From positions 9,920,001-9,984,000 of the forward strand of contig NZ_CP023699.1 in NCBI RefSeq assembly GCF_008704495.1: a DNA stretch of 64,000 bases, in the 5' to 3' direction. The notes under the pieces are model-generated. The model did no database searches, was not told where the DNA came from, and worked only from the letters and a program-made list of their open reading frames with translations. Both the position numbers and the translations under genes were made by a program. Below are positions 11,273 to 16,542 of the stretch, piece after piece (the first letter of the stretch is position 1; every line of letters begins with the position of its first letter). Source of the DNA: Streptomyces kanamyceticus (GTDB lineage Bacteria > Actinomycetota > Actinomycetes > Streptomycetales > Streptomycetaceae).

Positions 11273-12246
11273 TCAGTGCCGCGGCACGAAGTCCACGACG
11301 TCGCCCGCCCGTTCGCCGCCGGACAGCTGGCTGCCCCGGTCGGTGCGGATGTAGACCCGGTGCAGCCACCGGTCCTTGCCGTCCCAGCGCGGTACGAAGG
11401 GCGTACGGGCGTGTGTCGTACGGAAGTTGTCGACGATCAGTACGTCGCCCGGGACCAGGAACACGGCCTCGCGTACCTCGTCGAGTGCCTTGGAGAGGAC
11501 ATCGACCGCTTCGACGTCGGCGGGCTCCTTCGGGGCGAGCAGTTCGCGGTCGTATCCGAGGAAGGGATCCCGCGGGTCCCCGTAGAGGGGTTTGACGTCG
11601 GCGATGGCTCCCGGGTCCGCCACTCCGCCGCGGAAGGCCACGTCCACGCAGCAGGGCAGGGCCTCTCGAAGAGGCGGGCGCGGACGTCGTCGGGCAGCAG
11701 GGAGAGCGCCTTGCGGACCGAAGCGACGAGGGTGGCCGCCTTGCGTTCGTGGTCCGCCCTGGAGCAGGCGAGCAGCACGTAGTTGGGCTGGCGCACGTGG
11801 TACGCCATCTCCGTGTGGAACTCAAGGAGCGTCTCGGAGGTCTCAGAGGAGAGGAAGTGCGCGCCGGGCGACGGATAGACGTCGTGGAACACGCTGGCCG
11901 CGCGCAGTTCGCGGTAGCCGGTGTGCAGACCGAGACGGCGGCCGACGATCGCGAGCATGGCCTCCTGGTTCAGGAGCGTCCTGCGCACCGGAGCGGGAGT
12001 GCTGTCGGGGGTGCGCGGCAGGGCGTCGTCGTCCTCCACCGGCAGACCGCGCAGCAGCAGGTAGCCGTTCTGGTTCCCGTCGGAGCGGAAGTCGTCGAGG
12101 GCCGCCGCCAGCGGGGCGGGCAGCTCCGTGGCGGCCGTGCGCGCCGCGGCGAGGAACCCGTGGAGGTCCCTGCGCGGAATCCGCGGCAGCCGCCCGGCGA
12201 GCACTGTCAGGTCCGCCGAGTACGCGGAGCAGTCGAGCACGGTCAT
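11273..12246 (-). pseudogene. cas: Clavaminate synthase, broken by one-base frameshift as read
   Basis: Clavaminate synthase is the Fe(II)/2-oxoglutarate oxygenase that hydroxylates deoxyguanidinoproclavaminate, then cyclises and desaturates to clavaminate. The N-terminal part matches S. clavuligerus CAS closely ([14 protein letters not shown] [40 protein letters not shown]) with iron ligands in [10 protein letters not shown]. The C-terminal part has the second His in [12 protein letters not shown] and the 2-oxoglutarate Arg in the following [10 protein letters not shown]. The two parts are in different frames. Adding one base in the G/C run at 11659-11663 gives 324 residues, against about 325 in CAS2. 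The ATG overlaps the pah stop (ATGA), so translation is coupled. If the shift is real, the pathway stops before clavaminate. Confidence 0.93.
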
Positions 12247-13220
12247 GAGGGTGTCCTTTCTCGGGAGTCTCGGGAGTCGTATGAGTCTCGGGAGTGCGCG
12301 CGGGCGTACTGGTACAGCAGCTCCGCGCCGATCTCGGTGGCCAGCACGGAGGTGATGCCCCCGTGGTCGTACAGCGGCGAGACCTCCATGACGTCGAAGC
12401 CCACCGGGCGCAGCTCGCCGATGCCGCGCAGCAGGGCGAGCACCTCGCGCGAGGTGAGGCCGCCCGGCGCGGGCGTGCCGGTGCCGGGGGCGAACGCGGG
12501 GTCCATGACGTCGATGTCCACCGACACGTAGACGGGCGCTTCCCCGACGAGGCCGCGGACGAGCTCGCCGGTGCGCTCGGGGCCCAGTGAGCAGAATTCG
12601 TCACAGGTGATGATCCGTACGCCGTGTCCGCGGGCGTAGTCGAGCGAGTCGGGGCGCGGGTTGTGACCCCGGATGCCGATCTGCGCCATCCGCCGGGGAT
12701 CGACGAGCTTCTCTTCGATGGCGTGCCGGAAGGGTGTGCCGTGGTGGTACTCGCCGCCGTAGAAGGCGGGGTTGGTGTCGGAGTGCGCGTCCAGGTGCAG
12801 GACGGCGACGGGACCGTGCAGGGCCGCGACGGCGCGCAGCGCGGCCAGCGTCAGCGAGTGGTCGCCGCCGAGCATGAGGAAGGCCGCGTTGTCCGACAGG
12901 AGGCCGCTCAGTCTCTCCTGGGCGGTGGCCATGGCGATGTGCATGTTGAACGGGGTCAGGTCGATGTCCCCGGCGTCGACGCAGTCGATCAGGTCGAAGG
13001 TGCCGGGCCCGCGGTCGATGCCCACGCCGTGGATGAGCCCGGACTCGTCGCGGATGGCGCGCGGACCGAAGCGCGCGCCTGGCCGGTAGCTGGTGCCGCC
13101 GTCGTAGGGGGCGCCGATGACGACGACGTCCTTGCCCCGTGGCTCCGGGTCGTGCGGCAGGCGCATGAACGTGGGGATCTGCGCGTAGCGAGGCGAGACG
13201 GTGGTGTCGATGCGTTCCAC
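12243..13220 (-). CDS. pah: Proclavaminate amidinohydrolase
   Basis: This ureohydrolase-family enzyme removes the amidino group as urea from guanidinoproclavaminate. The 325-residue sequence is very close to S. clavuligerus PAH, and the Mn-binding motifs are intact: [31 protein letters not shown] and [16 protein letters not shown] chose GTG 13220 because GGAAGGGAGG stands ten bases upstream and it aligns with the MERID start of S. clavuligerus PAH. ATG 13268, overlapping the bls stop as ATGA, is the alternative and adds 16 residues. The C-terminus carries a repeat-encoded tail ([12 protein letters not shown]) absent from the S. clavuligerus protein. Confidence 0.95.
12259..12294. repeat. Four 9-bp tandem units in the 3' end of pah
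   Basis: Four units of TCTCGGGAG (the third is degenerate, TCGTATGAG) run head to tail and encode the Ser-Arg-Asp type repeat at the PAH C-terminus. The array ends just before the pah stop and the cas start, so it looks like replication slippage in a dispensable tail. Confidence 0.88.
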
Positions 13221-13264
13221 GGCCGGGGCCCCTCCCTTCCTGGTCGGGTACGTACGTGGTGTGG

Positions 13265-14821: not shown

Positions 14822-14826
14822 CGGCT

Positions 14827-16542
14827 TCAGATGGTCAGGGCGGCGAAACCGCCGGCCTGGAAGTCGTAGGAGACCGGCACCTCGATCAGGAACGGCCGCC
14901 CGAGCCCCGCGCCCTTGCGCAGCGCGGCGAGCAGTTCCTCACGGCTGGTGGCCCGGGTGGCCTCGACGCCGTTGGCGCGGGCGAGCGCGGTGAAGTCGAC
15001 GTCGGTGAACTTGACCGCGGGGTCGTGGGACCGGTGGTGGCCGATGTTCTGGTAGAGCTCGATCAGGCCGTTGGTGTTGTTGTTGACGACCACGGTGACG
15101 ATGGGCAGGTTGAGCCGGGCGATGGTCTCCAGATCGGCGCTGTTGGAGTGGAAGCCGCCGTCGCCCGCGATGAGGAAGGTCGGCTGTCCCGGCCGGGCCA
15201 GCTGCGCGCCGATCGCCGCGGGGATGCCGTAGCCGAAGCTGGAGCAGCCCGCCGAGGTGAGGAAGCCGAAGGGCTGTTCGGCGCGGGCGAAGAGCACCCC
15301 GTAGTGCCGGAAGAAGCCGATGTCGGAGACGATGGTGCCCTCGCCCGCCTCTGCGGTCTCCGCCAGCACGGTGTTCATGGTGTCCATCACCTGGTGCACG
15401 CGCAGGCCGTCGTCGTAGTGGTGGGGGTCGGCGAGGAACTCGGCGATCCGCTCCCGCAGCGGCGTGATGTCGTGCGCGGCCTTCGGGCCCAGGTCGGCCG
15501 TGGCGCGGTCGAGGTGCTCCACGAAGGCGAGGACGTCGGTGACGGCGTCGACGTCGGGGCGGTAGACCCGCGGCACCGGATTGGCCGTCGGGGAGACCCG
15601 GACCGTGGTCTTCGCCACGCCGCGTTGCCACATCGAGGGCCGCAGGTCCTCCGCGTAGTCGTAGCCGAGGGTGAGGATGAGGTCCGCGGGCCCGAACAGC
15701 GTGTCCAGGGCGGGGAAGTCCAGGATGCCGTCCATGTAGCCGGTGACCGCGCCGTAGTTCAGCTCGTGCGCGTGCGGCAGGACGCCCTTGGCGATGTACG
15801 TGGTGATGACGGGCAGGCGCAGGCGCTCGGTCAGCGCGCGGATCGCGGGCACGGCACCGGAGCGGATCGCGGCGGCGCCGACGACCAGCACGGGGTGCCG
15901 CGCCGAAGCGAGCAGTTCGGCCGCCTCGGCCGCGGCGTTCCGCCAGCCGTCCTCGACCGCGCCGACCGGTTTGGCCGGGAGGCTGGCCGGGGGGCGTGAC
16001 CGCGCGGTGTCCACGTCGCCGCCGAGCAGGTCGACCGGCAGGGAGATGAAGCTCGGCCCGACCGGCTCGGTCATCGCCGCGGCCATCGCCGAGTCCACCA
16101 AGTCCGTGATGTCGTCCGGGCGTTGGAGCTCCGCCGCGTACTTGGTCATCGGCCGCATGACGGCCACCGAGTCGAGGCACTGATGCGTGTCGTTGGGGAA
16201 GATGTCGTGCGATTCGGACTGGGCGGCGAGCGCGATGACCGGGGACCGGTCGAGCATGGAGGTGGCGACGCCCGTGGACAGATTGGTCATGCCAGGGCCC
16301 AGCGTGGCCCAGCACGCCTGCGGCCGACCGCTGATGCGGGCCAGTACGTCGGCCGCGACGCCCGCGGTGAACTCGTGCCGGGTCAGCACGAAGTCGATGC
16401 CGTCCGCCTCGTCGAAGAGGATCGACGCGGCCTCACGGCCGACCACCCCGAACACGGTGCGCACCCCGTGGTCGTGGAGACGGCGCAGCAGGGCGTGCGC
16501 GGTGGTCGGGTGGGTGGTGGGGCCGGTGGAGACACGGGACAT
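14827..16542 (-). CDS. ceaS: N2-(2-carboxyethyl)arginine synthase
   Basis: CEAS is the thiamine-diphosphate enzyme that condenses glyceraldehyde-3-phosphate with arginine, the first step of clavam synthesis. The 571-residue protein follows S. clavuligerus CEAS almost throughout: the N-terminal [19 protein letters not shown], the catalytic Glu in [33 protein letters not shown], and the ThDP/Mg motif [13 protein letters not shown] ending in VVVNNN. It is the first gene of the ceaS-bls-pah-cas operon and is divergent from the SARP gene. Its promoter must lie in the 350-base gap containing the 26-bp tandem repeat. Confidence 0.96.

Follow-up and report, generated by a model that had tools for sequence, protein, structure and literature searches.

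Can a clavam gene island with a broken clavaminate synthase gene (cas), and without its usual neighbor oat, stand for a whole biosynthetic cluster, and where in the genome is the remainder? The question is raised by an island in Streptomyces kanamyceticus, found in a window (the whole stretch of DNA analyzed, 64,000 nt) comprising bases 9,920,001-9,984,000 of one 10.13-Mb contig (NZ_CP023699.1). The island occupied window positions 6754-20820 and was subtelomeric, with the cluster ~0.2 Mb from one contig end. It was read, with a probability of about 0.72, as a 5S-clavam-type cluster and as one of two remnants of such a cluster type in the genome, with the pathway and the split proposed below. 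A second locus was found on the opposite (left) chromosome arm and contained DeoR, SARP-TPR, oat and KAS III-like genes and a cas relic (Table 1).

Homologs were counted in 392 Streptomyces genomes and in two wider samples that overlap each other (150 relatives; 245 genomes from the same order). The beta-lactam synthetase gene (bls) was restricted to the genus Streptomyces at E <= 1e-60, occurring in 15 of 150 genomes (1 of 44 genera) in the sample of relatives and 11 of 245 genomes (1 of 8 genera) in the order sample. In total, 25 of the 392 Streptomyces genomes were bls-positive: S. kanamyceticus itself and 24 others.

The initial annotation had placed a complete early clavam operon, ceaS-bls-pah-cas, at 11273-16542 on the minus strand, and the place, order and identity of these four genes were borne out. 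Clavam enzymes headed each list of structural matches, rather than acetolactate synthase, asparagine synthetase, agmatinase or unrelated oxygenases. The next best matches were an acetolactate synthase for CeaS (259.9 bits against 1062.9 for 1upa), CarA for BLS (87.1 against 616.6 for 1jgt) and 3-guanidinopropionase for PAH (246.8 against 586 for 1gq6), while both Cas pieces matched the clavaminate synthases 6vwq (331.8 and 234.2 bits) and 1drt. Judged by these scores, the matches to clavam enzymes are not due to chance. In NCBIfam, the listed matches of CeaS and BLS were to general families and all fell short of the cut-offs, PAH passed the agmatinase cut-off (192.1 vs. 174.3), and the cas N part scored 316.1 against the cut-off of 450 of the clavaminate synthase model. 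The genes were tightly packed, as had been described, abutting or overlapping by a few bases (e.g., pah stop and cas start). The word complete did not survive, given that the cas frame was broken and that oat was absent from the window.

The N part (12246 to ~11650) and C part (11647-11273) of cas were in different frames in the assembly, with the break near 11650, and the 269-amino acid open reading frame (ORF) at 11437-12246 resembled clavaminate synthase only to about residue 199. The distance from the start of the N part to the start of the C part measured 599 nt in the window, whereas it was divisible by three in all 24 relative loci (23 genomes) containing both parts; one further relative cas locus, in genome G045, was cut by a contig end and was not among the 24. 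Programmed frameshifting in cas was thought unlikely, with the break in 0 of 24 loci. The other matches of the genome to the clavaminate synthase model scored 128 bits (at 9.30 Mb), 61 bits (at 404821-404940) and 35 bits (at 10.09 Mb), and none of its matches attained the cut-off of 450. The frameshifted cas was thus the sole match above 130 bits and oat was on the other arm, so that the proposal of a clavam producer could not be upheld as it stood.

An ordinary working 5S-clavam cluster, with a cas frameshift introduced by sequencing or assembly and with oat acting in trans from the opposite arm, is a doubtful though real possibility. Neither cas part was under relaxed selection (dN/dS vs. 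G351: N 0.23, C 0.15; vs. G018: N 0.30, C 0.10), the remaining cluster genes were open frames, and one-base errors happen in GC-rich long-read assemblies. However, a scan of 600 kb of the same genome, the sensitivity of which was not gauged, flagged only eight frame switches: three in the window, three in 140 kb beside both loci and at the contig ends, and two in 396 kb elsewhere, which makes an error in cas unlikely a priori. Three of the eight were doubtful, the old frame staying open only 46-50 nt further; one of these was the ordinary pah/cas overlap and one was within the 396 kb. Additionally, cluster genes on both arms were hit (cas and SARP-TPR). The rarity of frame breaks in the assembly therefore speaks for a real cas mutation. 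Two further frameshift-like switches were seen on the chromosome arms, at about window position 21112 and at L143:17134.

The oat gene was present in all 24 other bls-positive genomes, with one match each at E <= 1e-60, 64-87% identical to the left-arm gene, and in 23 of the 24 it shared a contig with a bls lying no more than 27 kb away. The exception was the draft genome G045, with the two genes on different contigs. No match to the G351 oat better than E 0.066 was found in the window. The S. kanamyceticus oat was 9.5 Mb away on the left arm, and the next match in the genome was 34% identical. Both oat and KAS III were intact ORFs on the left arm. KAS III was found in three of the 24 bls-positive relatives at E <= 1e-60, always beside the acyl-CoA-dehydrogenase (ACAD) gene.

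Two joints were readable in the left-arm locus. At the first, an oat leader (404788-404838, equivalent to the G351 sequence just behind SARP) was followed after two bases by the 3' part of cas (404841-404940); aligned in this way, the joint is what one deletion of cas-N to SARP would leave. At the second, the aminotransferase upstream region (406004-406121) stood before KAS III, and this, on the same comparison, is what a deletion of aminotransferase to ACAD would leave. The window had a scar of its own: positions 19114-19180 corresponded to G351 25086-25152, ahead of the G351 oat, at 92.5% identity, and homology resumed at 19348 (G351 26551), inside the flavin reductase gene, with the G351 oat ORF (25325-26488) gone. 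Compared with S. silaceus, the oat-leader match in the window reached 19205, with a further weak match (25 bp, E 0.002) that may represent what is left of oat.

The window, the left arm and G351 all lost homology to one another at two shared points, 6754 and the stop codon of DeoR at 20820, give or take a few bases. When the 6754 region was extended to 7000, identity was 76% over 263 columns to G351 and 70% over 249 columns to G018. Beyond the island ends, nothing in the stretches compared matched G351, and the left-arm flanks gave only short hits of ~26-80 bp; for the flank before 6754 these were one of 26 bp and one of 80 bp. Given the shared outer ends and the deletion-like joints, the left-arm locus is best interpreted as a copy of this island that has suffered internal deletions.

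Fourteen genes were counted over the two loci: the 13 of the G351 island and the KAS III of G018, with other G018 neighbors (e.g., a P450) excluded. The window held 11 of the 14 (including the frameshifted cas) and the left arm four (including the two-frame SARP-TPR); only DeoR was common to both loci, and their union covered 14 of 14. Both loci probably descend from one cluster, with nearly complementary gene loss. A decaying non-functional cluster, in which both loci lose genes by deletion and frameshift without selection for a complementary set, is possible but was considered to have the poorer odds. The cas frame break, the cas relic, the loss of oat from the window and the SARP-TPR frame break all fit such decay, but the nine window genes compared were under purifying selection (dN/dS 0.15-0.42 vs. 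G351; 0.10-0.35 vs. G018, except SARP at 0.64), the left-arm oat and KAS III were intact, and the two loci together covered the genes counted.

Several observations weigh against the reading of two remnants with a shared origin and complementary loss. G351 was also without KAS III (E <= 1e-60), and the loss of KAS III from the window copy may predate this lineage, in which case the complementarity would be partly inherited. The left-arm SARP-TPR gene was split over two frames as well. The cas C part is undecayed, so the frameshift is either recent or an assembly error; with both cas parts constrained, a real break must be recent. No flavin reductase was found in the stretches examined around the tailoring genes (below) in G018, G057 and G082. 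The left-arm oat region was 92% identical to S. silaceus at the DNA level, compared with 83-86% for the window genes. With the left-arm region nearer to that species than the window genes are, the two copies may differ in history, and the left one may have arrived independently.

That both loci are independent horizontal arrivals of related clusters, rather than copies made within the lineage, was therefore taken seriously, at somewhat less than even odds. The S. silaceus identity of the left oat region agrees with it, as do the flanks, which were unrelated in the window, the left arm and G351 as far as compared. The DeoR genes argue the other way: the two copies were closer to each other (90%) than to G351 (84-86%), in a comparison that did not include the S. 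silaceus DeoR. The alternatives weighed here are not mutually exclusive.

Within the two-remnant reading, it is conceivable but unlikely that the linear chromosome preserves the pathway in two complementary half-clusters, one on each arm, after old inter-arm copying of the whole cluster and reciprocal loss, with selection holding one copy of each gene. Recombination between the left and right arms is known in Streptomyces, according to PMC8627663. If half-clusters are indeed kept, the left KAS III would be transcribed from the promoter region that once served the deleted aminotransferase, with oat acting in trans. A terminal inverted repeat was rejected as the source of the second copy: megablast matched nothing between the terminal 20 kb of one contig end and that of the other, and the DeoR copies were only ~90% identical. 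Integration at a tRNA gene was also set aside, as no tRNA was found in a scan that covered the window and not the left arm.

The accessory genes named in the initial annotation (aminotransferase, aldo/keto reductase (AKR), SARP, flavin reductase, nitroreductase and ACAD-like protein) all proved real, and a cvm-type neighborhood, rather than one of the late clavulanic acid type, was supported. The window aminotransferase was 88% identical to that of G351, 84% to that of G018 and 69% to that of S. clavuligerus plasmid pSCL4. The SARP was 74% identical to the G351 protein, 80% to the S. silaceus protein and 62% to the pSCL4 regulator over residues 367-729. The best NCBIfam model for the flavin reductase was HsaB (143.1 bits, under its cut-off of 230). 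The window DeoR was 90% identical in DNA to the left-arm copy and 86% to G351. A promoter and terminator scan of 10900-11600 found nothing.

Four of the accessory genes formed a module in the order aminotransferase-nitroreductase-AKR-ACAD. The module was found beside the early operon in G351 and G018 (83-88% identity) and was intact as a separate locus beside a SARP gene in G057 and G082 (72-82%), ~1 and 2.3 Mb from bls. The tailoring genes had rightly been called an uncommon set, and the description can be sharpened: four other genomes of the sample have the module, with its gene order unchanged. By gene position, it sits where related clusters hold a luciferase-type set. Homologs of the ACAD protein at >= 75% identity were found in five of 392 Streptomyces genomes and of the nitroreductase at >= 80% in seven of 392, S. 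kanamyceticus included in both counts, and all were bls-positive. With S. kanamyceticus excluded, four of four ACAD and six of six nitroreductase genomes fell within the 24 bls-positive genomes among 391 (hypergeometric 1e-5 and 3e-8, phylogeny ignored).

It is very improbable that the module belongs to another pathway that happens to adjoin the early operon. The ACAD family is broad, with distant homologs in 103 of 392 genomes at E <= 1e-20, as such an accident would allow; against it, close forms were confined to bls-positive genomes of the sample, the same order was seen again in four genomes, next to the early operon (G351, G018) or on its own (G057, G082), and the aminotransferase was Cvm6-like. 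A FastTree core tree of CeaS, BLS and PAH over 28 loci (S. silaceus without PAH) grouped the window with G351 and S. silaceus with a support of 1.00, and the G057 and G082 early genes fell in another clade. On this tree, therefore, module and core have been recombined. The ACAD protein scored just under the Pfam gathering scores (PF02770, 31.8 vs. 33.3; PF02771, 21.1 vs. 22.9) and matched the fold; monooxygenases ranked first in the fold search, with dehydrogenases close behind.

In G057 and G082 (L134-L137; L067, L071) the separate module included KAS III, in the order aminotransferase-nitroreductase-AKR-ACAD-KAS III. The early operon of G082 stood among genes of the type found in clavulanic acid (CA)-like relatives (solute-binding, SDR, LysR, P450 and ferredoxin), making this genome a candidate for both clavam types. 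Another clavam variant, in G242 (L049/L062) and G063 (L050/L051), contained a close nitroreductase, an SHMT-like protein, a different class-III aminotransferase, an AKR, an ATP-grasp amino-acid ligase and an MFS transporter; for G242, the SHMT, ligase and transporter were checked against Pfam, and the G063 counterparts were assigned by grouping only.

In the proposed pathway CeaS, BLS, CAS and PAH would lead to clavaminic acid, after which the Cvm6-like aminotransferase would enter the 5S branch and the AKR would reduce the aldehyde. The ACAD-fold flavoprotein, fed by the flavin reductase, and the nitroreductase-fold FMN protein would carry out redox tailoring, the predicted job of the luciferase-type enzyme in related clusters. 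If the frameshift is real, the pathway would halt at monocyclic deoxyguanidinoproclavaminic acid because the CAS C part, with a motif that we take to be the distal iron-binding histidine and 2-oxoglutarate arginine, would be lost. The strain would then be a natural block at the first CAS step.

Table 1. Features of the clavam island in the window and of the left-arm locus.
Feature	Position	Strand	Evidence or remark
Conserved stretch upstream of and into the aminotransferase ORF; outer left island end	6754..6886	+	73% over 137 columns to left-arm locus
Class-III aminotransferase, Cvm6-like	6782..8287 (start uncertain, 6914 possible)	+	PF00202, 312.3 bits
Nitroreductase-fold FMN protein, 214 amino acids	8322..8966	+	
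AKR, Cvm1-like	8991..9995	+	PF00248, 219.5 bits; conserved in module
ACAD-fold flavoprotein, likely flavin monooxygenase-like	10075..11214	+	
cas, C-terminal part	11273..11647	-	6vwq residues 223-345, 234.2 bits; frame differs from N part
cas, N-part ORF, 269 amino acids	11437..12246	-	6vwq residues 23-221, 331.8 bits; out-of-frame tail to stop at 11437
pah, proclavaminate amidinohydrolase	12243..13268 (start uncertain)	-	PDB 1gq6, 586 bits; PF00491
bls, beta-lactam synthetase	13265..14821	-	PDB 1jgt, 616.6 bits
ceaS, carboxyethylarginine synthase, 571 amino acids	14827..16542	-	PDB 1upa, 1062.9 bits, residues 1-571 (full length)
SARP-type activator with ATPase domain, Cvm7-like	16894..19107	+	BTAD, AAA_16
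Scar at the oat position of G351	19181..19347	.	oat ORF missing between flanking G351 matches
Flavin reductase, HsaB/Cvm3-like	19285..19848 (longer start 19168 possible)	+	PF01613; 79% over 156 amino acids to G351
DeoR-type regulator; stop codon is outer right island end	20026..20820	+	PF00455, PF08220
Left-arm DeoR	399553-400344		88% amino acid identity to window DeoR
Left-arm SARP-TPR, G351-like	400526-403416		In two frames
Left-arm oat	C1:403571-404731		87% identical to G351 oat
Left-arm cas relic	404841-404940		86% DNA identity over 100 bp
Left-arm KAS III-like gene	404939-405907		78% identical to KAS III beside ACAD in G018

Other genes were seen in the window outside the island. Directly before it was a 2-phosphosulfolactate-phosphatase-like (ComB) gene (5661-6737), without a match in the loci of relatives that were searched, and at 1573-4398 was a protein kinase fused to a solute-binding (SBP_bac_5) domain. 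Just outside the other end, a single large polyketide synthase (PKS) gene (21420-29483) encoded an AMP-binding loader and KS-AT-DH-KR, carrier and thioesterase domains. A PKS near the G018 clavam locus was 52% identical to it over part of its length. The window PKS was dropped as a pathway member, as it lies outside the island end. Separately, in two divergent clavam loci, L072:7446-9467 (G032) and L073:10132-12162 (G062), pah and cas were in one continuous ORF of 673 and 676 amino acids by our own gene caller, which may encode a fused bifunctional PAH-CAS protein.

A traceable biosynthetic cluster split between chromosome arms, with its deletion joints still readable, makes it possible to test how antibiotic clusters in subtelomeric regions are copied, lost and retained. 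A second outcome is a clavam tailoring module, found in at least five Streptomyces genomes, whose flavoenzymes are of a different type. A literature search at the title and abstract level gave, among the matches listed, no account of this module or of a split clavam cluster.

The island shared the ceaS-bls-pah-cas operon with clavulanic acid and CA-like clusters (S. clavuligerus, S. pratensis). Unlike the CA-like relatives, it was without solute-binding, LysR, P450/ferredoxin and Car-like genes, and the core tree set it apart. The initial annotation had recognized no late clavulanic acid gene, and this agreed with the calls of window 1-36500, from which the late-gene groups c10, c12, c7 and c19 (oppA, claR, car and P450/ferredoxin) were missing (the remaining genome was not searched), apart from the solute-binding protein fused to a kinase and one SDR outside the island; this SDR, grouped with Car-like genes, lay beyond the island end, at 31420-33036. 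CA-like clusters occur in many bacteria in many distinct variants, as outlined in PMC12482188, and the present variant may be drawn among those of that source. The same source states that S. clavuligerus double cas mutants lose beta-lactamase inhibition, and that it persists in the double pah mutant.

In its early operon the island was of one lineage with the loci of G018, G351 and S. silaceus. Module order was the same in G018 and G351; in S. silaceus the module was not visible, the contig ending at bls. Unlike the window, G018 and G351 had cas in frame, and oat was linked in all three. G018 additionally had KAS III in place and a P450. The ACAD fold and the nearby HsaB-like flavin reductase resembled two-component flavin monooxygenases of the DszC/TdsC/HsaA type, but the ACAD protein was only ~16-20% identical to the solved members listed, and its activity is predicted from fold.

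The chromosomal cvm genes of S. clavuligerus were compared through the published gene table and order, not through protein sequences. PMC3992018 gives the order of that clavam cluster as cvm6-cvm5-cvm4-cas1-cvm1-cvm2-cvm3, and the paralog cluster on pSCL4 is ceaS1-bls1-pah1-oat1-cvm6P-cvm7P. Genome G069 had the published cvm order, with a luciferase-like monooxygenase, an alpha/beta hydrolase and a SnoaL-type protein at the cvm5, cvm4 and cvm2 positions; this putative mapping follows gene order alone, and the name given to cvm2 in PMC3992018, ribulose 5-phosphate epimerase, differs. No Bac_luciferase, alpha/beta-hydrolase or SnoaL match was found among the island ORFs scanned, and ACAD and AKR searches of plasmids gave no S. 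clavuligerus record among the matches listed (12 of 14 and 12 of 396). S. clavuligerus is described in PMC6856088 as possibly unique in making both clavam kinds, and G057 and G082 are candidates with which this may be tested. Overall, the S. kanamyceticus island differed from the S. clavuligerus clavam cluster in having no recognized luciferase-type, hydrolase or SnoaL-type gene, in having ACAD-fold and nitroreductase-fold proteins, and in having cas frameshifted and oat on the other arm. In common with the clavam and paralog clusters of S. clavuligerus it had the early genes, a Cvm6-like aminotransferase, an AKR, a flavin reductase, a SARP-type regulator and the distribution of clavam genes over several loci.

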